A DNA stretch of 40,455 nt from Opitutia bacterium (GCA_002737275.1 NSIG01000014.1:45356-85810), one strand, 5' to 3'; positions 9,038 through 33,732 are shown, numbered from the stretch's first letter. The notes: a model not told the origin generated them from the sequence alone. Program-made: numbers and translations.

Positions 9038-9721
9038 TCAGCGCGGCTGGCCGCCGAGGAGTTTTGAGCGAAAACGCAGGCGCTGCACGTAGGTCGCGGC
9101 GAGCACGCCGGCGAGGTGGGCGAGGGGCACGGGCTGGATTCCTTCGGGGGCAAATCGCGCGAACAGCGGTGAACTCACGGCAAATTCCGCTGCGATCTTC
9201 AGGATGATCAGAGCCAACGCCGTCCGCCAAAACCAGCGGTCGGACGTCGGCGCGGACCGGGTCTCCGCGCCTGCCACCACCACGGCGGCCGCCGCCTCGG
9301 TTTCCGCAATCCGTGCGAGCTGGGCGAACGCTAAAAAAGTCAGCATCGCCGTCGTCAACCCCGAGAGTCCGCCATAGAATCCCAGGTCCGGATCGAGTCC
9401 GAAAAGCGCGACGCCGATAATCGGCGGAGCCACGATCAAAAGCACTCTCGCCCGGCGCGGAGCCACGCGCTCCGCCCAGATGCTCGCGACCGCGAAGACC
9501 GCGAGATTCCACAACAGGTGACTCAGCCCGAAGTGCACAAAGGGCCCCGTCCAAAGCCGCCAATATTCGCCGCGCTCCAGGGCGCCGCGGTCGTAGAGAA
9601 GTCCGGGGTTCAGGGCCGGCGCGGTGGCGACGCCGAGCGCGAGCACCACGACGCTGAGGCTGGCCCAAGGGACCGTGGCGAGCGCGGTGGGGTTACGGGA
9701 GGCGTTCGACGGTGCGGACAT
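9038..9721 (-). CDS. Rhomboid-family membrane protease, rhombosortase-like
   Basis: ERGEYWRLWTGPFVHFGLSHLLWNLAVFAVASIWAERV, GFYGGLSGLTTAML (GxSG serine), PLAHLAGVLAATYVQRLRF. Confidence 0.75.
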   Translation of the reverse strand: MSAPSNASRNPTALATVPWASLSVVVLALGVATAPALNPGLLYDRGALERGEYWRLWTGPFVHFGLSHLLWNLAVFAVASIWAERVAPRRARVLLIVAPPIIGVALFGLDPDLGFYGGLSGLTTAMLTFLAFAQLARIAETEAAAAVVVAGAETRSAPTSDRWFWRTALALIILKIAAEFAVSSPLFARFAPEGIQPVPLAHLAGVLAATYVQRLRFRSKLLGGQPR

Positions 9722-9961
9722 CCCTCAAACAAATCGCGCCGGAGCGTGACCCTGCAATCGCTGATTCGAGCCCGCATCCCGGGGGACGTTTCGTTTTGAA
9801 TTTTGCCGTTGGAGGCGCGACGTCGGACTGCCACCCGATAGCGTCGGCCACAGAAGATTTTGATTTAGCTGAGCTGAAAAAGCTCAAAAGCTGGGACATC
9901 TGGTTCTTCATTAGCATGGATTCGCGAAGATTCACAGTTAGCACTCTTTCCGTATCACCCC

Positions 9962-10750
9962 ATGGATCACCTTACGGTCGGAGATTATTGGAACGGCAAT
10001 GCCGAGGCTTGGACGAAGCTCGCGCGCGCGGGCTACGACACCTATCGCGACCACCTGAACACGCCGGCGTTCTTGGCGCTATTGCCGCCGGTCGAAGGGC
10101 TGGAGGGGCTGGATATCGGCTGTGGCGAGGGGCACAACACGCGCCTGATCGCGCAGCGCGGCGCGCGGATGACGGGGCTGGACATCGCGGAGATTTTTAT
10201 CCGCCACGCGCGCGAGGAGGAGCAACGCGCGCCGCTCGGGATCACGTATCACCACGCGAGCGCGGTGGAGTTGCCCCACAAGACGGCGTCGTTCGATTTC
10301 GCGGTCGGCTGCATGAGCCTAATGGATATTCCGGAGACGGCGCAGGTGGTGGAAGAGGCGTTTCGCGTGCTGCGGCCGGGCGGGTTTTTGCAGTTCTCGA
10401 TTCTTCACCCGTGTTTCAATCCGCCGCACCGCCGCAACTGCCGCGACGAACGGAAGCTTACGTTTGCGGTGGAGGTCGGAGATTATTTTTCGGAAACGCG
10501 CGGGCAGATCGACGAGTGGATTTTCGGGACGGCGCCGCTCGCGCTGCGGCAGCGGTTGCCGATGTTCAAGGTGCCGCGTTTCCACCGTCCGCTGGGGCAA
10601 TGGATCAATCTGCTGATCGCGGCGGGGTTTGTGATCGAGTGCGTGGAAGAGCCGCGGCCGGACGATGCGACGGTGCTGGCCAACCCGAGCCTACAGGACG
10701 CGCAGGTGGTCGCGTATTTTCTGCACGTAAGGGTAAGGAAGGCGGGCTGA
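9962..10750 (+). CDS. Class I SAM-dependent methyltransferase
   Basis: GLEGLDIGCGEGHNTRLIAQRGARMTGLDIAEIFIRHA, VEEAFRVLRPGGFLQFSILHPCF. Confidence 0.9.
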   Translation: MDHLTVGDYWNGNAEAWTKLARAGYDTYRDHLNTPAFLALLPPVEGLEGLDIGCGEGHNTRLIAQRGARMTGLDIAEIFIRHAREEEQRAPLGITYHHASAVELPHKTASFDFAVGCMSLMDIPETAQVVEEAFRVLRPGGFLQFSILHPCFNPPHRRNCRDERKLTFAVEVGDYFSETRGQIDEWIFGTAPLALRQRLPMFKVPRFHRPLGQWINLLIAAGFVIECVEEPRPDDATVLANPSLQDAQVVAYFLHVRVRKAG

Positions 10751-10766
10751 AGCTTGCGGCCGAGAA

Positions 10767-11063
10767 CTACTCCAGCCGCTCGCGCCAGTAATCGGGCCGG
10801 CGTTTGAAGTGAGCTACGGCGAGGAGCATAATCCGATCCGGCCGCTCCGCGTAGATCAGCGCATACGGAAATTCACGATTAAAGTGTCGTCGCGTGCCGT
10901 GGCGCCAAGGGCGCTGGAGTTGTGGCGCGGCTTCGATTTCAGCGATCAATCGGAGAACCGTGTCGTAAAAACGATCCCCAAATTCTGGGACTTTTCCAGC
11001 CTAGGAGGCCACAGCCTCCGCAAACTCGTCGTCGGCCTGCGGGTGGAAGATCGTAGGTTTCAC
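10767..11063 (-). pseudogene. RelE/ParE-family toxin, inactivated by an in-frame TAG plus a frameshift
   Basis: GTG at 11063 (overlapping the antitoxin TGA): VKPTIFHPQADDEFAEAVAS*AGKSP, then frame change to EFGDRFYDTVLRLIAEIEAAPQLQRPWRHGTRRHFNREFPYALIYAERPDRIMLLAVAHFKRRPDYWRERLE. Confidence 0.75.
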
Positions 11064-16510: not shown

Positions 16511-17527
16511 TCACCCGCCGATGTAGCTCATCTCAATCTTGGCGCGGGATTCGCCAGCGGCGAGCAGGCCGGCGCGTTCGTCGCTGTAGCGGTCTTCGCG
16601 GCCGCGCCAGATGCGCGCGAGGTAGGCGGCGAGTTCGGAGTCGTCGGCTCCGGCGCGCAGGCAGCCCAGCACATCCCAGCCGAGGGAGGCGAAGAGACAG
16701 GTGAAAAGTTTGCCGTCGGCGGAGAGGCGCGCGCGGTGGCAGTCGCGGCAAAACGGCTCGGTCACCGAGCTGATCAAGCCGATCTCGCCGCGTCCGTCGG
16801 CGTAGCGGTAACGCGCCGCCACCTCACCGCGGTAGGCCGGACCGACCGGTTCAAGCGGCCATTTTTCCTCGATGCGGGCCACGAGTTCGCGGGCCGGCAC
16901 GACGCGCTCGGCCGTCCAATGGTTGGTGTTGCCGACATCCATGAACTCGATGAAGCGGAGGGTATGACCGCGGGCGCGGAAATAATCGCAGAGCTCAAGC
17001 AATTCGCCGTCGTTCACCCCGCGCTGGATCACGCAGTTGATCTTCACCGGCAAACCGACCGCCGCCGCGGCATCGACGCCGCGCAGCACGCGGGCTACGC
17101 TGAAGCCGAGGCCGTTGAGCTTGCCGGCGGTGGTATCGTCGAGCGAATCGACGGAGACGTTGAGGCGGTCGAGACCCGCCGCGCGGAGGGCCGGCGCGAG
17201 TTTTTCGAGTAGCCAGCCGTTGGTGGTCAGCGCGACATCGCGCACGCCCAGTTCCTGTTTGAGAGCGCGAATGAGGTCGGGGACATCGGGGCGCAGGAGC
17301 GGTTCACCGCCGGTGAGCCGGATTTTTTCTACGCCGAGCGTCGTGAATGCCCGCGCGATGCGGGTGAGTTCGCCGAGCGTCATCAGTTGCGGATCGCGCA
17401 AAAAGGCGTGGCCGGGGCCGAAAACCTCTTTCGGCATGCAATAGGGACAGCGGAAATTGCAACGGTCCGTCACCGAGATACGGAGATCGCGCAGCGGACG
17501 TTGGAATTGGTCGACGGGTCCGGACAT
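16511..17527 (-). CDS. moaA: GTP 3',8-cyclase MoaA
   Basis: LRDLRISVTDRCNFRCPYCMPKEVFG, EKIRLTGGEPLLRPDV, PFCRDCHRARLSADGKLFTCLFA, C-terminal YIGG. Confidence 0.96.
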   Translation of the reverse strand: MSGPVDQFQRPLRDLRISVTDRCNFRCPYCMPKEVFGPGHAFLRDPQLMTLGELTRIARAFTTLGVEKIRLTGGEPLLRPDVPDLIRALKQELGVRDVALTTNGWLLEKLAPALRAAGLDRLNVSVDSLDDTTAGKLNGLGFSVARVLRGVDAAAAVGLPVKINCVIQRGVNDGELLELCDYFRARGHTLRFIEFMDVGNTNHWTAERVVPARELVARIEEKWPLEPVGPAYRGEVAARYRYADGRGEIGLISSVTEPFCRDCHRARLSADGKLFTCLFASLGWDVLGCLRAGADDSELAAYLARIWRGREDRYSDERAGLLAAGESRAKIEMSYIGG

Positions 17528-17624
17528 GGGGAAGGAGAGAATGTGGCCAACGGACCAAAGCAAAGGAAACGACGAATTTTCGTTCGCACCGCGCACCGCC
17601 GGGCCGATAAACCTCACGTCCTCC

Positions 17625-18839
17625 ATGCTTACACCCGGCGAAGCCGAGCGGTTGATCCGCGAAAACATTTCCCTCCTTCACCGCGAGGATTGCCCGCTCG
17701 CGGCGGCCCACGGTCGCATTTTGCGCGCCGATCTGCGCGCGGACCGCGATTTGCCGCCCTTCGACCGCGTGACGATGGACGGCTACGCGTTGCGGGCGTC
17801 GGCCCTGGCGGCCGGCATGCGGACCTTTCGCATCGAAGGCGTGCAAGCGGCCGGCATGGTGCCGCGGACGCTCGGTGCATCGGCCGACGCGTGCGTTGAG
17901 ATCATGACCGGGGCCGTTTTGCCGAGCGGAGCGGATTGCGTCGTGCCTTACGAGGAAACCACCCGCGCCGCCCCGGGGACGACCGTGACGGTGAACGAAT
18001 CTGCGGCGAAGTTTTCCGCCGGCAACGCCGTGCATCGGCGGGGAGGCGATCACCGCGGCGGCGAAGCAATCGTGCGCGCCGGCACGCGCCTCACGGGTCG
18101 CGAGATCGCCGTGGCTGCGGCGTGCGGCTACGCGGCGCTCACCGTCGCGCATTCGCCTAAGATCGCGGTGGTCGCGACCGGCGACGAGCTCGTCGAGGTG
18201 GAAGCCGATGTCGCCCCGCACCAAATCCGACGCAGCAATGACCACGCGTTGCGTGCCTCGCTCATCCTCGCCGGTTACCCGCGCGTCGAACGGTTTCACG
18301 TCCGCGATGTGCGCCACGAGATCGAGCATCTGCTTTGGCACCTGCTCGCCGAATACGATGTGCTCTTGCTCACGGGCGGCGTTTCGAAGGGAAAGTTCGA
18401 TTTTCTCCCCGATGAACTCACTCGCCAAGGCGTGAAAAAAGTTTTCCACGGCGTCGCCCAGCGGCCGGGCAAACCGTTTTGGTTCGGTCTGAGCGCGCGC
18501 TCGACTCCGGTCTTCGCCCTGCCGGGCAATCCCGTCTCGAGCACCACCTGTCTCCACCGCTACGTGCTGCCGGCACTCGCGCACGCCAGCGGCGCCGCCC
18601 CGATCCAGCCACGCCTCGTCGCGCTGGCGGCTCCGGTGAATTTCCAGCCCAAGCTCGCCCGCCTGCTGCCGGTGAAACTCAGCAGCGGACCGGGCGCCGA
18701 ATTGCTCGCGACCCCGGACGAGGTAAATACCTCGGGCGATTTTGCCGGCCTCGTTGGGACCGACGGGTTCGTCGAACTGCCCGCCCATCAGGCGGAGTTC
18801 CCAGTGGGCACCGTGGTGGCATTTACCCCGTGGGTGTGA
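17625..18839 (+). CDS. moeA: Molybdopterin molybdenumtransferase MoeA
   Basis: DLPPFDRVTMDGYALRA, EIMTGAVLPSGADCVVPYEE, VAVVATGDELVE, LLTGGVSKGKFDFLPDEL, VFALPGNPVSSTTCLHRYVLPAL. Confidence 0.95.
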   Translation: MLTPGEAERLIRENISLLHREDCPLAAAHGRILRADLRADRDLPPFDRVTMDGYALRASALAAGMRTFRIEGVQAAGMVPRTLGASADACVEIMTGAVLPSGADCVVPYEETTRAAPGTTVTVNESAAKFSAGNAVHRRGGDHRGGEAIVRAGTRLTGREIAVAAACGYAALTVAHSPKIAVVATGDELVEVEADVAPHQIRRSNDHALRASLILAGYPRVERFHVRDVRHEIEHLLWHLLAEYDVLLLTGGVSKGKFDFLPDELTRQGVKKVFHGVAQRPGKPFWFGLSARSTPVFALPGNPVSSTTCLHRYVLPALAHASGAAPIQPRLVALAAPVNFQPKLARLLPVKLSSGPGAELLATPDEVNTSGDFAGLVGTDGFVELPAHQAEFPVGTVVAFTPWV

Positions 18840-24407: not shown

Positions 24408-25211
24408 ATGCTCCTTCGCCCATTCCTGATTGGGATCGCGGTTAGCTCCAACGCCGTCCTCACCCTTGCCGCCGCCGAATCTTCGCCTGCGGTTGCGACC
24501 CTCCGCGTTCTCACCTACAACATCCACCACGGCGAAGGGGTGGACGGCAAACTCGACCTCGTCCGCCTGGCCGGCGTCATCACCGCCGCCCGCGCCGACG
24601 TCGTCGCGCTCCAAGAGGTTGACCAGAAAACCACGCGCACCGGCGGCGTCGATCAGGCCGCCGAACTTGCCCGGCTCACCGGCCTGCATGTCGCCTACGG
24701 CAAAGCGATTGACTACCAAAGCGGCGCCTACGGCCAAGCCCTGCTCAGCCGCTGGCCGTTGGCTGACTTCACCATTCACCCGCTGCCTAACCCGGCGAAG
24801 GTCGAGCCCCGCATTGCCATCTCTACGATCGTGCGCCCGCCCGGCCAACCCGCGTTCCGCCTCGTCGGCACGCACCTCGATGCCACGCGCGACGACACCG
24901 CCCGCTGGCAACAAGCCGCGCGCCTGATCGAACTCTTCGGCGCCGATGCCACCCCCACGATTCTCATCGGCGATCTCAACGCCCGCCCCGAAACCCGCAT
25001 CATGCAGGCGCTACTCCAACCGTTCACCGATGCCTCCGCCAGCCAGCCGGCGCTCACGAGCCCGGCCGAAAACCCCAGGGCACGGATCGACTTCGTTCTC
25101 TTCCGCCCCGCGACCGCTTGGCGCGTTCTCTCCTCGAGTGTTATCCCCGAAGCCATCGCCTCCGATCACCGGCCGCTGCTGGTGGAGCTGGTTCTGGCTG
25201 CGGCCGACTAG
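24408..25211 (+). CDS. Endonuclease/exonuclease/phosphatase-family secreted protein
   Basis: LRVLTYNIHHGEGVDGKLDLVRLAGVITAARADVVALQEVDQ, LVGTHLDATRDD, TILIGDLNARPETRIM, ARIDFVLFRP, AIASDHRPLLVEL. Confidence 0.92.
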   Translation: MLLRPFLIGIAVSSNAVLTLAAAESSPAVATLRVLTYNIHHGEGVDGKLDLVRLAGVITAARADVVALQEVDQKTTRTGGVDQAAELARLTGLHVAYGKAIDYQSGAYGQALLSRWPLADFTIHPLPNPAKVEPRIAISTIVRPPGQPAFRLVGTHLDATRDDTARWQQAARLIELFGADATPTILIGDLNARPETRIMQALLQPFTDASASQPALTSPAENPRARIDFVLFRPATAWRVLSSSVIPEAIASDHRPLLVELVLAAAD

Positions 25212-25295
25212 CGATTCAGTTCATTTGTCGTGCAACGCCCTTTCAAACTTTTGAACCGGCCTTAAAATTATTTGGTGACAAACGGTAAATGTTTC

Positions 25296-25399
25296 AATTC
25301 TGCTTGCGGCCCCTAGCAAGTTTGGCATCGACCCGGTCATCCTAATTCTGTAAATTTTTTGGCAGCCCCTTCGAAATTCGTTTCCCAAAATTCTGTAAA
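25296..25399 (+). promoter_or_regulatory. Rhodopsin leader: three spaced AATTCTG motifs plus a small hairpin
   Basis: AATTCTG at 25296, 25344 and 25389 (spacing 48 and 45 bp; the last two extend to AATTCTGTAAA); hairpin CTTGC-GGCCCCTA-GCAAG at 25303-25320. Confidence 0.4.
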
Positions 25400-25490
25400 A
25401 ACCCGTTCAACCGTTCAGCCGATAGGCCCAAACGCCCAAGACTCACTTCTATCGCGCCACCGCGAGCTCGTCTCTCAAAAAAATTTCCCC

Positions 25491-26291
25491 ATGTTAACTA
25501 AATTAAAATCAAAAAAACTTAGGACCCTTTCAGTGGTTCTAATCGGTTTATTATCGTCGAGCAACGCCTTCGCTGCTGCGGGCTCCAACTTAAAATCCGA
25601 CGATTTTGTCGGGGTATCGTTTTGGATGATCTCAATGGCCCTTGTCGCCGCGACCGCCTTCTTCTTCCTCGAAACCCAACGGGTGACGGCGAAGTGGAAG
25701 ACTTCGCTGACGGTGTCCGGTCTGGTCACGATGGTGGCCGCGTGGCACTATTTCTACATGCGCGATGTGTGGGTAGCCACCGGCACTACACCAACGGTTT
25801 ATCGCTACATCGATTGGATTATCACCGTCCCACTGCTGATGGTCGAATTCTATTTGATTCTCTCGGCTATCACTAAAGTCCCGGCCGGTGTGTTTTGGCG
25901 TTTAATGATCGGAACGTTCGTCATGCTCATCGCTGGCTTCATGGGCGAGGCCGGTTACTTAGCTGTCTTGCCTGCATTTATCATCGGTATGGCTGGATGG
26001 GCTTTCATTGTTTGGGAAATTTACGCTGGCGAAGCTGGTAAGATCAACGCGGATTCAGCACCCGCCTCGGTGCAATCAGCCTTTAAGTTGATGCGTGCAA
26101 TTGTGCTTTTTGGTTGGGCAATTTACCCAATCGGTTATTTCCTCGGTTATCTAACCGGTGCCGGTCCGGAGAGCAGCATGAAGATGTTGAACATTGTTTA
26201 TAATCTGGCCGACGTCGTAAACAAGATCGCCTTCGGCGTGATTATTTGGACGGTCGCAGTTTCTGAGTCTGATAAAGCGTCCGCAAAGTAA
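25491..26291 (+). CDS. Proteorhodopsin, predicted green-absorbing outward H+ pump
   Basis: Seven-helix protein with signal peptide MLTKLKSKKLRTLSVVLIGLLSSSNAFA; WKTSLTVSGLVTMVAAWHYFYMRDVW; RYIDWIITVPLLMVEFYLI (D108/T112/L116/E119 = GPR D97/T101/L105/E108); FGWAIYPIGYFLGYL; NLADVVNKIAFGVIIW (retinal Lys). Confidence 0.97.
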   Translation: MLTKLKSKKLRTLSVVLIGLLSSSNAFAAAGSNLKSDDFVGVSFWMISMALVAATAFFFLETQRVTAKWKTSLTVSGLVTMVAAWHYFYMRDVWVATGTTPTVYRYIDWIITVPLLMVEFYLILSAITKVPAGVFWRLMIGTFVMLIAGFMGEAGYLAVLPAFIIGMAGWAFIVWEIYAGEAGKINADSAPASVQSAFKLMRAIVLFGWAIYPIGYFLGYLTGAGPESSMKMLNIVYNLADVVNKIAFGVIIWTVAVSESDKASAK

Positions 26292-26305
26292 TAGGCCCGC
26301 ACAAG

Positions 26306-26351
26306 TTCCGGTCGAAACGCTGCTTCTTTTTGGCGTTCGACCGGAATTTTA
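26306..26351 (+). terminator. Hairpin with T-tract between rhodopsin and crtE
   Basis: TTCCGGTCGAAACGC (26306-26320) pairs with GCGTTCGACCGGAA (26333-26346) with one bulge, followed by TTTTAT. Confidence 0.75.
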
Positions 26352-26363
26352 TCACCCCCAGTT

Positions 26364-27251
26364 ATGAACGCTCCCATGCAGCTCGCCGAATCGGCTGCGG
26401 ATTTTTCATCCACCGAGCATCTTTTGCGGGTTGAGCGTCTACTGGTGGAGTTAGTCTCTGAATCGACGGCTGCCCATCTTGATTCTTTTGATACCGATCG
26501 CGCGGCCTTGACGCACCTTGCATCCGGCGGCCATCGTGTTCGCGCCAAGCTCGGGCTCGACGCCGGAATTCGGGTGGGACTGTCCCAAGATGATGCTGTT
26601 GTCGTCGGTGCAACGGTGGAGCTCTTGCACAACGCCTCTCTGGTCCACGACGACTTCCACGATGGCGCGATGCTCCGTCGCGGAGTTCCTACAGTTTTAG
26701 CCTCCCACGGTGCAGATGTGGCCGTGCTGACAGGAGATTTGCTCCTCTCGGCGGCCTACGCGGCGATCGCCCAATTTTCCCGACCCGCTGTAATTGCGGA
26801 CATGGTCCGCCTGATTCATCGGCGGACTGCTCAAGTAATCCGTGGCCAATGCGGCGACCTATCGGCTCGCAAGCGACCCGTCACCGAACTAGCCCGCTAT
26901 GAGGCAATCGTTGCTGGCAAATCCGGAGCCTTACTCAGTCTTCCATTGGAACTGGCTTTACTGGGCGCGGGCGTCCGCGATTCGCTTGGTCTGGCCCAAG
27001 AAGCGGCCGAGTCATTTGGCATCGGTTATCAAATCGTCGACGATCTCGAAGATGCGGAAATCGACGGCCCTCTTTCTTTAAACATCTTAAATGTTCTTCA
27101 GATCGAGCACCCTCCGATTGAGGCTGCCCGTCTCGCGCGCCAAATCGGATCACGGCACCTACAATTTGCGATGGATGCAGCTGGCCGACTGCCGCTGGGC
27201 GCTGGCGAATTGCTGGGCAAATTGGCCCGAGTTATGAGTGAGCGTCTGTGA
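26364..27251 (+). CDS. crtE: Geranylgeranyl diphosphate synthase (polyprenyl synthetase)
   Basis: LLHNASLVHDDFHDGAMLRRGVPTVLASHGADVAVLTGDLLLSAAY; second Asp-rich motif GIGYQIVDDLEDAE. Confidence 0.9.
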   Translation: MNAPMQLAESAADFSSTEHLLRVERLLVELVSESTAAHLDSFDTDRAALTHLASGGHRVRAKLGLDAGIRVGLSQDDAVVVGATVELLHNASLVHDDFHDGAMLRRGVPTVLASHGADVAVLTGDLLLSAAYAAIAQFSRPAVIADMVRLIHRRTAQVIRGQCGDLSARKRPVTELARYEAIVAGKSGALLSLPLELALLGAGVRDSLGLAQEAAESFGIGYQIVDDLEDAEIDGPLSLNILNVLQIEHPPIEAARLARQIGSRHLQFAMDAAGRLPLGAGELLGKLARVMSERL

Positions 27252-27269
27252 CGGGTCGGGACACTCCGA

Positions 27270-28745
27270 ATGCAGGCAATTGTCGTCGGGGCCGGTTTCG
27301 GTGGGATCGCCTCGGCGCTGCGCTTACGCGCAAAAGGTTACGAAGTTCGCCTGATTGACCGGTGCGAAATGATCGGTGGGCGGGCTCAGGTCTACGTGCG
27401 GGAGGGCTTCCGCCACGACGCCGGTCCCACGGTGATCACGGCGCCGTTCTTGCTTGAAGAACTGTTCATATTGTTCGGCGAGCGGATGGAGAATTCCCTC
27501 AAATTAGTGCCACTCAAACCGTGGTATCGTTTTGAATTTTCCGATGGCGATCATTTTGATTATGGCGGGACGCTGGAGGATACGCTGGCCGAAATCAGCC
27601 GGATCGAACCGCGCGATCGCGAGGGCTACCTCGCGCTGCTAGCCCATTCCCGCCGTATTTTCGACGTAGGCTTCACCGAGCTTTCCGCTCAGCCATTTGA
27701 TCGGTTCTCGACCATGCTTAAGCAGGTCCCGCGCTTGGTCGGTTTGCGCAATTACGAGACCGTGTGGACCATGGTGAAGCGCCACTTGCATAGCGAGAAA
27801 CTGCGCCAAGCATTTTCAATCCAACCCTTGTTGGTTGGAGGCAATCCGTTTGATACGACCAGCATCTATGGGCTCATTCATTTTCTCGAACGGGCTTACG
27901 GCGTGCACTTCGCGATGGGCGGAACCGGGGCGGTCACGGCTGCACTCCGCGGTTTGATGCAGCGACACGGCATCGAGATTCAACTCAATACCTCGGTTGA
28001 TTCCATCGTTATCGAACAGGGGCGGGCCACGGGCATTTGCTTGGAGAATGGAACGAAACTGGAAGCCGACGTAGTCGTCTCGAATGCCGATGCCGCCCAC
28101 CTCTATCGCGCGATGATTCCTCCGGCGCAGCAGAGTGCCGCGAGCCGGTTGAAACTCGCGGCGGCGCACTATTCAATGGGACTTTTTGTGATCTATTTCG
28201 GGACGACTCGGACTTACCCGGCGGTGGCCCATCACACCGTTTGGATGGGTTCACGTTATCGCGAACTGCTCGTCGATATATTCCATCGTAAAATTCTGGC
28301 GGACGACTTCTCCCTTTATCTGCATCGACCGACCGCAACCGACCCAAGCTTCGCGCCTCCGGGATGCGACAGTTTTTACGTGCTTTGCCCGGTGCCAAAC
28401 CAGCAGGCAAAAATTGATTGGTCAGTCGAAGGACCCCGCTTGTGCAACCGGATTGTAGCGGCGCTTGATCGCACGATTCTGCCGGGATTGACCGCGACCA
28501 TCACCGCGGACTTTTACAAAACACCGGACGATTTCGCCCACGACTACCTGAGCGTGCACGGGGCTGGGTTTTCCGTCGCGCCGTTGTTTCGACAGTCCGC
28601 TTGGTTTCGCTTTCATAATCGGGCCGAAGGCATCCGTAATCTTTACCTGGCCGGTGCCGGAACTCATCCGGGCGCAGGGCTGCCCGGTGTGCTCTGCTCG
28701 GCCAAAGTCGTGGATACGCTCATCCCGGCGGCATCTTCAGCGTGA
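27270..28745 (+). CDS. crtI: Phytoene desaturase
   Basis: FAD motif AIVVGAGFGGIASALRLRAKGYEVRLIDRCEMIGGRAQVYVREGFRHDAGPTVITAPFLLEELF; C-terminal NLYLAGAGTHPGAGLPGVLCSAKVV. Confidence 0.96.
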   Translation: MQAIVVGAGFGGIASALRLRAKGYEVRLIDRCEMIGGRAQVYVREGFRHDAGPTVITAPFLLEELFILFGERMENSLKLVPLKPWYRFEFSDGDHFDYGGTLEDTLAEISRIEPRDREGYLALLAHSRRIFDVGFTELSAQPFDRFSTMLKQVPRLVGLRNYETVWTMVKRHLHSEKLRQAFSIQPLLVGGNPFDTTSIYGLIHFLERAYGVHFAMGGTGAVTAALRGLMQRHGIEIQLNTSVDSIVIEQGRATGICLENGTKLEADVVVSNADAAHLYRAMIPPAQQSAASRLKLAAAHYSMGLFVIYFGTTRTYPAVAHHTVWMGSRYRELLVDIFHRKILADDFSLYLHRPTATDPSFAPPGCDSFYVLCPVPNQQAKIDWSVEGPRLCNRIVAALDRTILPGLTATITADFYKTPDDFAHDYLSVHGAGFSVAPLFRQSAWFRFHNRAEGIRNLYLAGAGTHPGAGLPGVLCSAKVVDTLIPAASSA

Positions 28746-29686
28746 AGCCGGCAACGAACAACGTCGCCCTGGCCACCGCCGAAAACGCGCTGAAGAAGAA
28801 AGGTCGTAGTTTTTATTGGGCGCGACGTCTTCTCGGCCCAGTTCATGCCAGCCGAGCAACTCGCCTCTACGGCTTTTGCCGTCACCTCGACGATCTCGCA
28901 GATGAGGCAACCTCGGTTGCGAGCGCCCGGGTTAAACTGAGTGCGGCCAGCCAAGATATCGCCGCAGGAGTCTCTTCAGATCCAGTGATTCGAGATGGGA
29001 TTGAGCTCATGCAAGAGTGTCGAATTTCCCCAGTAATCGCCGTCGAGTTGGTAAAAGGGCTCCTCTCCGATCTCGATCTCGTGCGCTGCCCAGACGAAGC
29101 GGCCCTGCTCCAATATTGCTACCGGGTGGCCGGAACCGTCGGAGTGATGATGTGCGGCGTGCTCGATGTATCCGATCCGAAGGCGTTCGCCCATGCCATC
29201 GATCTGGGAATTGCCATGCAGTTGACAAATATCTGTCGGGACATCGCGGAGGACGCGGCCGCAAATCGCCGCTACCTTCCCGCGTCTCTCATCGGTGATC
29301 TCGGCCCGGAGGAACTGATCTCGCCCTCCTTGGCGAGCCGACCCCGGCTCCGGCAAGGGGTGGAGACGTTGCTGAATCGTGCGGATCGGCACTACGCCAG
29401 CGGTGAAATGGGGCTGGCTTACCTGCCGCTTCGCGCTCGGAGCGGCATCTTGGTCGCAAGCCGCGTCTATCGCGCGATCGGCACAAGGTTAAGAGCGCAG
29501 GGTTCGATTTTTTGGGAGGGTCGGATTATGGTTTCAGATCGTCGAAAGGCCGGGTTAACCGTCGGCGCCTTGATCAGCGCATCCGGCCAAGGATTTTTTT
29601 GGCGCAAGCCTTTCGGGCATGATGCCAGCCTGCATGATGCACTGTTCGGGCTTCCCTACATCAAACTGGGCCATGCGATCCGATAG
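28742..29686 (+). CDS. crtB: Phytoene synthase
   Basis: GTG start overlapping the crtI stop; FYWARRLLGPVHASRATRLYGFCRHLDDLADE; AMQLTNICRDIAEDAAANRRYLP. Confidence 0.95.
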   Translation: MKPATNNVALATAENALKKKGRSFYWARRLLGPVHASRATRLYGFCRHLDDLADEATSVASARVKLSAASQDIAAGVSSDPVIRDGIELMQECRISPVIAVELVKGLLSDLDLVRCPDEAALLQYCYRVAGTVGVMMCGVLDVSDPKAFAHAIDLGIAMQLTNICRDIAEDAAANRRYLPASLIGDLGPEELISPSLASRPRLRQGVETLLNRADRHYASGEMGLAYLPLRARSGILVASRVYRAIGTRLRAQGSIFWEGRIMVSDRRKAGLTVGALISASGQGFFWRKPFGHDASLHDALFGLPYIKLGHAIR

Positions 29687-30854
29687 CGATATTGCAATTC
29701 TTGGCGGTGGGTGTGCCGGCTTAAGTCTAGCCATGCGACTCGCAGACTCGGGCGCGGAAGGCCCAAACGTAGTGGTGCTTGAGGGTAGGGCGCTCTATGC
29801 CCCGGACCGGACTTGGTGTTTCTGGGATGATGGAAATGCGCGTCTGCGCCATCTCGTTCAGCATCGTTGGAGCTCGGTCGCGGTCGCAGACCACCGGCGT
29901 CGGGTCACGGTCGACTGTCGCGCAGCGCCTTATCAAATGATACCGGCGGCAGCCTTCTACGCTGCCGCTACCCAGACGATTGCTAGAACTTCTCGGATCG
30001 AACTCGCGATGAACGAGACCGTTATCGCTGAGCCTCAAAAAGAGGATCGTCGCTGGCGAATTGAGACGAGTACCGGCGTGCGATACGCAAAACAGATTAT
30101 TGATACCCGTCCCCAACCGCGGCCTGAGCGTGAATCCGTTATTTTGTGGCAATCCTTCTCGGGCCACGAAGTGACGTGTGACGCGGCTTGCTTCGATCCC
30201 GAATCCGCGACCCTCATGGATTTTTCTTCAAGTCATAAGGGCGAAATCACTTTTCTTTATCTGCTCCCTTTTTCAAAGCACCGCGCGTTGATTGAGGCTA
30301 CCGTCTTCGCGCCCAAGCCACTCGGTCCTAGCGAACTGGCGGACAGGTTAGGAGGCCTCGTTCGCCAGTGTGTGGGTGAAGCGAGTTTTTCCGTGCTGCG
30401 CTCCGAGCATGGCATACTGCCGATGGGCCAAGCCACTCCCGCTCAAAATATGGACGCTACCTTTGTCCGCGCCGGCATGGCTGGGGGCGCTGTGCGCGCG
30501 GCCTCGGGTTTCGCTTTCCAGCGGATTCAACGATGGGCTGAAGACTGCGCCGCCGCGCTGTTGGCCGGACACCCGCCAAGGGCGCATTCCCCGGACCCGT
30601 GGCTTCTTCGGACCATGGACGGCCTCTTTCTTCGCGTTCTTCGGGCGAGACCCGAACTCGCCCCGGACCTTTTTTTCAAACTGTTCGCGATGAAAAACTC
30701 CGGCCATATCATCCGCTTTATGAGCGATTGCCCAACTCTGGCCGACTACGCGGCCATCGTCTCGGTATTACCGGCTGGACCTTTCTTGAGGGAGATCCCA
30801 CGCAGCTTAACGGTTTCATCTCGAAGATCGATTAAGGGCCGTGCCGCCGGATGA
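29673..30854 (+). CDS. crtY: Lycopene beta-cyclase (CrtY family)
   Basis: DIAILGGGCAGLSLAMRLAD, APDRTWCFWDD, ILWQSFSGHEVTCDAACFDPESATLMDF, FLYLLPFSKHRALIEATVF, GILPMGQ; start overlaps crtB. Confidence 0.93.
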   Translation: MRSDSDIAILGGGCAGLSLAMRLADSGAEGPNVVVLEGRALYAPDRTWCFWDDGNARLRHLVQHRWSSVAVADHRRRVTVDCRAAPYQMIPAAAFYAAATQTIARTSRIELAMNETVIAEPQKEDRRWRIETSTGVRYAKQIIDTRPQPRPERESVILWQSFSGHEVTCDAACFDPESATLMDFSSSHKGEITFLYLLPFSKHRALIEATVFAPKPLGPSELADRLGGLVRQCVGEASFSVLRSEHGILPMGQATPAQNMDATFVRAGMAGGAVRAASGFAFQRIQRWAEDCAAALLAGHPPRAHSPDPWLLRTMDGLFLRVLRARPELAPDLFFKLFAMKNSGHIIRFMSDCPTLADYAAIVSVLPAGPFLREIPRSLTVSSRRSIKGRAAG

Positions 30855-31741
30855 AAGCTCAGAGAACCCAAGGTCTGGTCTTCAGTATCGCCGCCCTTGT
30901 TCTTGCGGCGGCGTCGTTGGTCCTTGGACGTTTCGACGAGCGGATCGAATTGATTGTGGTAGCCTCGCTCATCGTTGTTCTCGGCGTGCCTCATGGCGCA
31001 CTCGACACGCTTTTCGCCCATCGGCTTTACGGAATTAGCACCCTCGGAGGCTGGCTTCGGTTTGGCGTAATCTACCTGCTTCTCGCCGGTTTGGTGGTTG
31101 GTCTGTGGCTCCTCCAACCCGCGCTGTTTCTCATCGGCTTTCTCATCATCTCAGCCGCGCATTTTTCAGGCGATCCTACGGCTGGAACTCCGTGGCCCAC
31201 CCGCACCGTCTATGGCGGCGCGATCACAATCCTGCCCGCTCTTCTCCACGCTGCGGATATCGCGCGACTCTTTGCACTCCTTGCCGGAGAAGAGTCGGCC
31301 GCGATCATAGTGCCATGGCTCAGTCTGCTCGCTTGGCCGTGGGTCGTCGGCCTAGTTCTAGCCAGTCTGCAACGCGTACGCTCGGATTGGTTGACCGCGG
31401 TGGAACTAGGCGCCGTCGGTGTGCTCGCGATCGTGGCGCCGCCTCTCATCTCCTTCGTCGTCTTTTTCTGCGGCATGCATAGCGCCCGGCACATCCTTAG
31501 GTCGATGGACTATTCCGACCGGTCCTCCCTCTACCGACTCCTCGCCGCCGCCCTTTTACCGATGCTGGGAGTTTTGGGTGGGTCGGCTCTCGCTTGGTAT
31601 TTTCTTCGTGAGATTTCACTCGATGCCAAAATTATCCAGTTGGTCTTCGTTGGACTCGCCGCTTTGACGGTCCCGCACATGGCTTTGGTGGAACAAGTCC
31701 GGCTTTCCGGATGGAAAAAACCAACTACCACCCACCTTTAA
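30851..31741 (+). CDS. blh: Beta-carotene 15,15'-dioxygenase, Brp/Blh family (retinal-forming)
   Basis: VVLGVPHGALDTLFAHRL, IISAAHFSGD, FFCGMHSARHILRSMDY, LAALTVPHMALVEQ; ATGA overlap with crtY. Confidence 0.94.
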   Translation: MKAQRTQGLVFSIAALVLAAASLVLGRFDERIELIVVASLIVVLGVPHGALDTLFAHRLYGISTLGGWLRFGVIYLLLAGLVVGLWLLQPALFLIGFLIISAAHFSGDPTAGTPWPTRTVYGGAITILPALLHAADIARLFALLAGEESAAIIVPWLSLLAWPWVVGLVLASLQRVRSDWLTAVELGAVGVLAIVAPPLISFVVFFCGMHSARHILRSMDYSDRSSLYRLLAAALLPMLGVLGGSALAWYFLREISLDAKIIQLVFVGLAALTVPHMALVEQVRLSGWKKPTTTHL

Positions 31742-32034: not shown

Positions 32035-33381
32035 CTATCTCATCGCCCTCACCACGGGCTGCGTCCACGCCGTTTCAAACTCGTTGGCTACACTGCCGTT
32101 CACTTTCGCCTGCGAGGAAATCACCCGGGCGCGCACGTAAATCTCGTCGCCGCGCAACGTGTAGCTCGCCGTCGACCCCTTAACTTCGGCCAACACCGCG
32201 CCCACGTCTTTGCTGTAGCGGCGGTGCGGCAGGGTCCTCGCCGCCGAGGCATCGCCGGTGCGCGGCGGCAGCAATTGGCTCGACGGATCGTAGCCTCGGC
32301 GTGTGCCGATGAACTGCGTTACGTAGGTCACGCCGGGATCCGCTTGGATTTCCAACCCTAGCGTCGTCGCCGTCCGGGTCACTTCTTTCAGCGTCACGCC
32401 CGACGTCGCGTAAAAATCTCCCGCTTCCATGGCCAAAATAATCGACTCCGGCGTGAGGTGGCGTGCCCGCACCATCACCCAGCCGCGGCCCGAATTGCTC
32501 TTCCCGAGCATTTGCTCGTGGTAGTGGTGCGAGTCATCGACGCCGATGCCATACATCACGTCGAGCTTGAGCTCGGCGAGCCGGCGCGTGAGCACCACGT
32601 CCCAAATCTCTTCGTTGCTCAGGTGCGCGACGTCGCCGGCATTATGAACTCCCGGATGGCCGTTATAAACTTCGAAGAATTTCTCGTGGTGCACCTGCAT
32701 CAATTCCTCCGCGGTTACCCCCCAAATAAAATTCGGGTGATTTAGATGCGGGAACATCGGCTGCCCCGTTTCCTCCCGCTGCACTCGCACGGCTTCGGCC
32801 GTGCGTTGCATGATTTCGAGCGCATTATCCGCCGCGACCGGCGCAACGAGGGTGCGCGGATTTATGAGATTCATGTGCACCGGCCCGCCTTGCGCCGGCG
32901 TCGTGGCCGTTGCCGGGCGCTTCCAATTTGCAGTCACCTCAAGACCCGGAATCATCAGAAACCGCCCCGGCTCCTCGAAGAGTGTACGATATTCGGTGAG
33001 CGGCTTGAGCCGCACTTCCTGCGTGCCCGCCGCCTCGCGTTGCTCGACCCAGTCGGCGCCGAAGCGCGCGACGTAGTTTTCCAATACGACCCCGCCGCCG
33101 CGCTGCACCACTTTGCCCGCCACGACCGCCGGGGGCTTGATCGCGAACCACCGCTGGCCCTCCGCCATGATGTTGTGATCCGACATCGCGAGGAAGTGAT
33201 AGCCAGCGCGTTTATACCAATCGGTGATCATTTCCGGGTAATCGTCGCCGTCGCTCCAGAGCGAGTGGGTGTGCAAATTGCCCTTGAACCAACGCGGTCC
33301 CGATTCGGCGGCGGGCAACGGAGTCATCGCTCCACCGACTCCGATCGCGCCGCAAAGCAGGAAAAGCCCGAGAGTTTTCAT
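32035..33381 (-). CDS. PHP-domain CehA/McbA-family metallohydrolase, secreted
   Basis: WFKGNLHTHSLWSDGDDYPEMITDWYKRAGYHFLAMSDHNIMAEG; HLNHPNFIWGVTAEEL; GVDDSHHYHE; start MKTLGLFLLCGAIGVGG. Confidence 0.88.
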   Translation of the reverse strand: MKTLGLFLLCGAIGVGGAMTPLPAAESGPRWFKGNLHTHSLWSDGDDYPEMITDWYKRAGYHFLAMSDHNIMAEGQRWFAIKPPAVVAGKVVQRGGGVVLENYVARFGADWVEQREAAGTQEVRLKPLTEYRTLFEEPGRFLMIPGLEVTANWKRPATATTPAQGGPVHMNLINPRTLVAPVAADNALEIMQRTAEAVRVQREETGQPMFPHLNHPNFIWGVTAEELMQVHHEKFFEVYNGHPGVHNAGDVAHLSNEEIWDVVLTRRLAELKLDVMYGIGVDDSHHYHEQMLGKSNSGRGWVMVRARHLTPESIILAMEAGDFYATSGVTLKEVTRTATTLGLEIQADPGVTYVTQFIGTRRGYDPSSQLLPPRTGDASAARTLPHRRYSKDVGAVLAEVKGSTASYTLRGDEIYVRARVISSQAKVNGSVANEFETAWTQPVVRAMR

Positions 33382-33454
33382 CAGACAAGATTCACGAACC
33401 GATTGGCCACGCGAGTAAAGCCACCAACCGTGACAATCCGGCTGCCCGCGCGCT

Positions 33455-33732
33455 CTATCCGCGCCGCCGGCGCCACGCCGCAAGGTCCAGCACCGCCAAG
33501 CCAAAATCACGCCCACGGGCGCCGGCTCCGGAATGGCCGTGCCGGTAAACGTCCCCATCTGGCTCCAATACGGAGCGAGGCTGCTCATGGGGGATAATCC
33601 ATGCCGCTCACCGTCGCGATTGGGCCCACGTCGTTCCAAGCCGGCCCGTTGTTCGGGTCGCTCGTGCTGCCCGCCGGACGGCCAAAAACGATCAGCGCCC
33701 GAGCCGATGGCACCGCGACCGGTCCAAATCAC
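33455..33732 (-). pseudogene. Decayed 3' end of a PEP-CTERM-anchored protein
   Basis: GTFTGTAIPEPAPVG in one frame, followed in another frame by GLAVLDLAAWRRRRG*; a third piece VFGRPAGSTSDPNNGPAWNDVGPIATVSGMDYPP upstream in a different frame. Confidence 0.55.

Follow-up and report, generated by a model that had tools for sequence, protein, structure and literature searches.

A proteorhodopsin photosystem operon of apparently hybrid ancestry, at a site empty in some congeners, in a freshwater Opitutaceae genus

Of 2916 Verrucomicrobiota assemblies, 215 contain rhodopsins, and in most of these crtE, crtI, crtB, crtY and blh lie beside the rhodopsin gene in the order that other prokaryotes also show (Bar-Shalom et al. 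2023, PMC10284914). Within this phylum, the metagenome-assembled genome (MAG) Opitutae-Tous-C4FEB was described in 2017 as photoheterotrophic, with a complete pathway for carotenoids in addition to a green-type proteorhodopsin (PR) (Cabello-Yeves et al. 2017, PMC5673642). Here we describe a PR cassette in an Opitutia bacterium, carried on a stretch of 40,455 nucleotides (GCA_002737275.1, NSIG01000014.1:45356-85810; hereafter the window), whose gene set and order are the same as those of the Verrucomicrobiota clusters above. The two studies bear out a remark in an earlier note on this DNA, namely that retinal phototrophy had already been reported in aquatic Verrucomicrobiota. The class, the gene order and a congeneric cassette are already published; what is added here is an empty insertion site and evidence of hybrid ancestry. 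In our assessment the locus is very probably a proteorhodopsin photosystem operon, inserted in an ancestor that a few species share and hybrid in origin.

The Tous-C4FEB cassette (NEVA01000023.1; L013 in our comparisons) belongs to the same genus as the window and has the same genes, order and insertion site, with 92-97% protein identity across the six genes; the window nonetheless represents a different species or strain, and one tract of its PR gene is more diverged. In the PR-1 type of Candidatus (Ca.) Pelagisphaera phototrophica, crtI and crtB are fused as crtIB, whereas in the window they are separate genes that overlap by 4 bases. A cassette from another genus of the family (L051, genome G099) has, in its crtI region (~9391-10878, - strand), a crtI frame of 794 amino acids, which is long enough for a crtIB fusion of the PR-1 style. 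Beyond the phylum, the cassette of Vibrio campbellii also comprises PR, crtE, crtI, crtB, crtY and blh, was laterally acquired by a heterotroph, as appears to be the case here, and is patchily distributed among isolates (PMC3380642). The Vibrio cassette is flanked by transposases, whereas none is found among the flanking genes identified in the window.

The phylogenies of PR and the Crt proteins that the earlier note had proposed were computed, and the front and back halves of the cassette give conflicting trees. The cassettes compared were those of the window and L012-L014, those of other Opitutaceae (L019, L020, L021 and L025) and those of a Verrucomicrobiales type (L015-L018 and L029). In the partition of PR, crtE and crtI, the window and L012-L014 cluster with the other Opitutaceae (support 100/100), and a grouping with the Verrucomicrobiales-type cassettes is rejected; in the partition of crtB, crtY and blh, the same group joins the Verrucomicrobiales-type cassettes (support 95/96), the alternative of an Opitutaceae clade being rejected. 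The rejected topologies have log-likelihoods lower by 176 (p = 7.8e-81 in the approximately unbiased test) and 27 (p = 0.0013), respectively, both p-values being optimistic because the groups were defined after the single-gene trees had been seen. Site likelihoods assign PR, crtE and crtI to the 5' tree (by 56, 203 and 115 log units) and crtB, crtY and blh to the 3' tree (by 146, 152 and 55), and a quartet count agrees with these halves for five of the genes. The switch lies at the end of crtI (Table 1), where sliding nucleotide identity between the window and L019 drops from about 83% to about 55%. Judged by these trees, the operon is a hybrid in which an Opitutaceae-type PR-crtE-crtI segment appears to be joined, at the crtI/crtB boundary, to a Verrucomicrobiales-related crtB-crtY-blh segment. 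In the RpoB tree the Verrucomicrobiales-type carriers form a clearly separate clade, at 68% RpoB identity; the order name itself derives from record titles (Prosthecobacter, Akkermansiaceae), and titles alone are unreliable, as L021 is titled Akkermansia and yet is placed by RpoB among the Opitutaceae.

A conflict between trees can also arise from unequal rates or long branches rather than recombination, and here crtY and crtB show higher evolutionary rates than crtI, while blh is weak on its own. We nevertheless regard such an artefact as improbable: crtE strongly backs the 5' tree although its evolutionary rate is close to that of crtY, the switch is abrupt and occurs at a single place, and L020, which is congeneric by rpoB (97.9%), shows an identity of no more than about 44-62% over the 3' half. 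Taking recombination as the explanation, we infer the direction of transfer from amino-acid identities, with donor lineages that are sparsely sampled. The other Opitutaceae are similarly distant from the Verrucomicrobiales type in both halves, and the window's group is closer to it in the back half; the window's lineage is therefore the likelier recombinant. More broadly, we lean, by a modest degree, towards the view that freshwater Verrucomicrobiota exchange operon halves between orders at crtI/crtB, in addition to whole cassettes, and that the halves are inherited as separate modules. A literature search for mosaic PR operons returned no relevant open-access paper, and such reports may exist.

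Other cassettes in the comparison show different patterns of relatedness. L014 (genome G022) and L021 (genome G502) are sisters by RpoB (97/96), and the L014 cassette is near that of the window in both halves, a pattern that suggests transfer of a whole cassette between genera. In the betaproteobacterial loci L026 (Glaciimonas immobilis) and L028 (Janthinobacterium lividum), CrtI is 78-80% identical to that of the window and the rhodopsin only 32-33%, so that the rhodopsin gene appears to have been swapped beside a similar crt set. Finally, a 10.6 kb contig titled Methylovirgula sp., an alphaproteobacterium (L023), carries a full cassette with a PR 79% identical to that of the window; it reflects either transfer between phyla or an error in binning the contig.

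The second line of evidence concerns the insertion site. The cassette stands between an endonuclease/exonuclease/phosphatase-family gene and a gene for a CehA/McbA-like metallohydrolase (Table 1), with a SASA-type esterase and a TonB receptor as further neighbours. A description of the surroundings as ordinary secreted hydrolases was thus about right. In three congeners (G018, G088 and G514) the two flank genes are immediate neighbours, their matched ends separated by 66-70 bp, and the esterase and TonB-receptor sequences beside them stand in the same order as in the window. This arrangement identifies an empty site and, consequently, the cassette of about 6.8 kb as an insertion; its absence from these congeners would be explained less simply by several clean losses. 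In both L012 and L013 the cassette sits between the same neighbour genes as in the window. The insertion between these two unremarkable genes very probably took place in an ancestor shared by a few species within a single freshwater Opitutaceae genus. Searches recovered PR from 4 of the genus's 13 genomes, a rhodopsin from 11 of 150 genomes sampled in the family and a Blh-family match from 16 of 388 genomes of a phylum sample. Congener G018 (RpoB 97.9% identical to that of L013) has, on another contig and in another setting, a different cassette of its own (L020).

Searches of the window with Rfam models and for tRNAs gave no match, and hence the insertion is not marked by a tRNA there. A plasmid search found no similar cassette; it returned only short matches, 66-80% identical, to carotenoid genes from Pantoea and other organisms. 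An origin of the cassette in faulty binning or assembly might be suspected from the division of the MAG into 94 contigs and from the GC content of the cassette, 0.50-0.59 against about 0.60-0.66 in its surroundings. However, the window lies inside a single 102-kb contig, and the cassette recurs with the same neighbours in two congeners that have assemblies of their own, namely the MAG from the Tous reservoir and one from another lake; we consider an artefact extremely unlikely. Elsewhere in the window, recA (1089-2246) and a moeA-like gene (17457-18839) are both ordinary-looking.

Table 1. Coordinates of the cassette, its flanks and the features discussed (positions in the window).
Feature	Coordinates	Strand	Evidence and remarks
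Left flank: endonuclease/exonuclease/phosphatase-family gene	24408..25211	+	PF03372
Leader	25212..25490		non-coding, ~280 bp upstream of PR; presumed promoter region
PR (proteorhodopsin), 266 aa	25491..26291	+	PF01036 149 bits, E 1.6e-43, cutoff 24.6
PR tract diverged from congeners	~25750..26130	+	sliding identity; mostly synonymous changes
crtE, prenyl diphosphate (GGPP) synthase, 295 aa	26364..27251	+	PF00348 132 bits, 2.2e-38
crtI, phytoene desaturase, 491 aa	27270..28745	+	NCBIfam TIGR02734 560 bits, above cutoff
Recombination breakpoint interval	28542..28801		site-likelihood scan, 2-unit range; best at CrtI residue 487 of 491, ~28728
crtB, phytoene synthase, 314 aa, GTG start	28742..29686	+	PF00494 201 bits, 3.7e-59
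crtY, lycopene beta-cyclase, 393 aa	29673..30854	+	PF05834 190 bits, 9.9e-56
blh	30851..31741	+	PF15461 137 bits, 1e-39; TIGR03753 5.1e-50, above cutoff
Right flank: CehA/McbA-like metallohydrolase gene	32035..33732	-	NF038032 6.4e-13, below curated cutoff

The computed gene content of the cassette is complete. Its six genes, in the order PR-crtE-crtI-crtB-crtY-blh, all lie on the + strand without internal stops, and this arrangement, as the earlier note had given it, was upheld by Pfam models, by relatives and by catalytic residues. Five genes were confirmed by Pfam (PR, CrtE, CrtB, CrtY and Blh all score far above the curated gathering cut-offs) and CrtI by NCBIfam TIGR02734. All five retinal-synthesis enzymes adjoin PR on one strand, and the set spans the steps from geranylgeranyl diphosphate (GGPP) to retinal, as had been claimed. 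Regarding the proposed extent of the cassette, 25212-31741, the end is correct, as it coincides with the blh stop; the start is not, as position 25212 simply follows the stop codon of the phosphatase-like gene upstream. For PR the most likely start is the ATG at 25491, where the alignments of relatives begin, and for crtY the ATG at 29673, within the 3' end of crtB, its open reading frame opening at 29619. Adjacent genes overlap by 4 bases at crtI/crtB (GTGA, 28742-28745), by 14 at crtB/crtY (29673-29686) and by 4 at crtY/blh (ATGA, 30851-30854). Such overlaps from crtI onward fit one translationally coupled transcript and suggest that the cassette is a single operon. The + strand of the leader contains no strong sigma70 consensus, the sole promoter-like site in the region being on the - strand. 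Nei-Gojobori dN/dS values computed against L012, L013 and L014 are 0.05-0.28 for all six genes, and the pathway and the pump are therefore under purifying selection and maintained in the window's group. Collectively, the presence of a complete PR and retinal-synthesis cassette in a heterotroph-like Opitutaceae genome is supported.

The PR itself is a predicted green-light proton pump. Its best match in the PDB is green proteorhodopsin (GPR; 8cqc, E 7.6e-89), and alignment to GPR gives, in GPR numbering, H75, D97, T101, L105, E108, D227 and K231. The Schiff-base Lys231, the acceptor Asp97, the donor Glu108, and His75 and Thr101 are thus all kept, and position 105 is Leu, as in green variants, rather than the Gln of blue ones. 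The functional residues are the same as those of green proteorhodopsin (PDB 8cqc, 2l6x), although the window's PR has diverged in sequence and has its own signal-peptide-like leader. Because fold and retinal are common to the rhodopsin families and pump function is predicted only, the protein could in principle be a light sensor or a pump of another ion specificity. The full set of D97, T101, E108, H75 and K231, top PDB matches to green and blue proteorhodopsins far above the sodium or chloride pumps, and annotation of the flanking genes with no transducer-like gene adjoining PR together make this highly unlikely, and a proton pump remains our prediction.

Within the PR gene, the diverged tract (Table 1) is 72-92% identical to L012 and L013 at the nucleotide level, whereas L012 and L013 are 91-99% identical to each other there; over most of the remaining gene the window is 89-99% identical to both. 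Relative to L012, dS is 0.48 for PR and 0.13-0.26 for the other genes. The tract probably entered by recombination as a short import from a PR outside the sampled set, with hardly any effect on the protein sequence.

The motifs of the retinal-synthesis enzymes are likewise intact. CrtE has both Asp-rich motifs, DDFHD (96) and DDLED (226), and its PDB matches are GGPP synthases; CrtB has both DxxxD motifs, DDLAD (50) and DIAED (167), with PDB matches to CrtM/phytoene synthase; and CrtI matches the phytoene dehydrogenase 4dgk (E 7e-135). The dinucleotide motif is intact in CrtI and CrtY, and His 48, 104, 210, 214 and 276 of Blh are invariant across 19 aligned cassettes; PDB searches with Blh and with CrtY gave no match. 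CrtI and Blh pass NCBIfam subfamily cut-offs, whereas the NCBIfam matches of CrtE, CrtB and CrtY all fall short of the curated cut-offs, and the exact product specificity of these three is therefore assigned partly by context. Precursor supply in the host genome includes IspH, an enzyme of the methylerythritol phosphate (MEP) pathway, together with two additional prenyl synthases; the sole SQS_PSY gene seen there is crtB.

Given that beta-carotene is an intermediate of this pathway and that the host genome has one FA_hydroxylase-family gene, the crt genes might serve mainly to make protective carotenoids or a carotenoid antenna rather than retinal for PR. The pathway terminates in retinal via Blh, however, and no carotenoid hydroxylase (crtZ) was recognised in the 68%-complete host genome; the FA_hydroxylase-family gene, considered as a crtZ candidate, was rejected as a better fit to an ornithine-lipid hydroxylase model, although below that model's cutoff. 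In addition, the residue at GPR position 152 is Phe. By hand alignment to bacteriorhodopsin W138, this position is the putative antenna fenestration site, a glycine in xanthorhodopsin. Overall, a mainly protective or antenna role seems quite unlikely, and supply of retinal to PR is the use we favour.

The order of the CrtE, CrtB, CrtI, CrtY and Blh reactions is established, and from it and the intact motifs we infer enzymatic function and pumping as follows. CrtE would condense farnesyl diphosphate and isopentenyl diphosphate from the MEP pathway to GGPP, CrtB would join two GGPP to phytoene, CrtI would desaturate phytoene to lycopene and CrtY would cyclise lycopene to beta-carotene, which Blh would then cleave into two retinals. 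Retinal would be bound at Lys231 of PR, and green light would drive outward pumping of protons that add to the proton-motive force of the heterotrophic host. In carbon-starved cells of the related Ca. Pelagisphaera phototrophica, light-mediated energy supported the production of ATP and the uptake of sugar (PMC10284914), and by analogy a similar light benefit is expected in the window's organism.

Several points weigh against this overall account of the locus. In the quartet count blh alone is near-even (6.0 vs 6.2 residues), its likelihood favouring the 3' tree. The window's group is no more than the likelier recombinant: moving it improves the fit by 357, moving the other Opitutaceae by 298. 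No clear promoter was found, the counts from promoter and terminator scans being no higher than those for shuffled sequence, and the genome to which the window belongs is 68% complete.

The cassette itself is ordinary, and its value lies in the comparison. Within a single genus, some species carry the cassette, others have a clean empty site and one has a different cassette at another location, so that the gain of phototrophy can be studied between closely related genomes. PR photosystem clusters are said to co-evolve, as the title of a 2007 paper by McCarren and DeLong reportedly states. The apparently hybrid operon described here qualifies that view: genes of a photosystem cluster need not share a single history.

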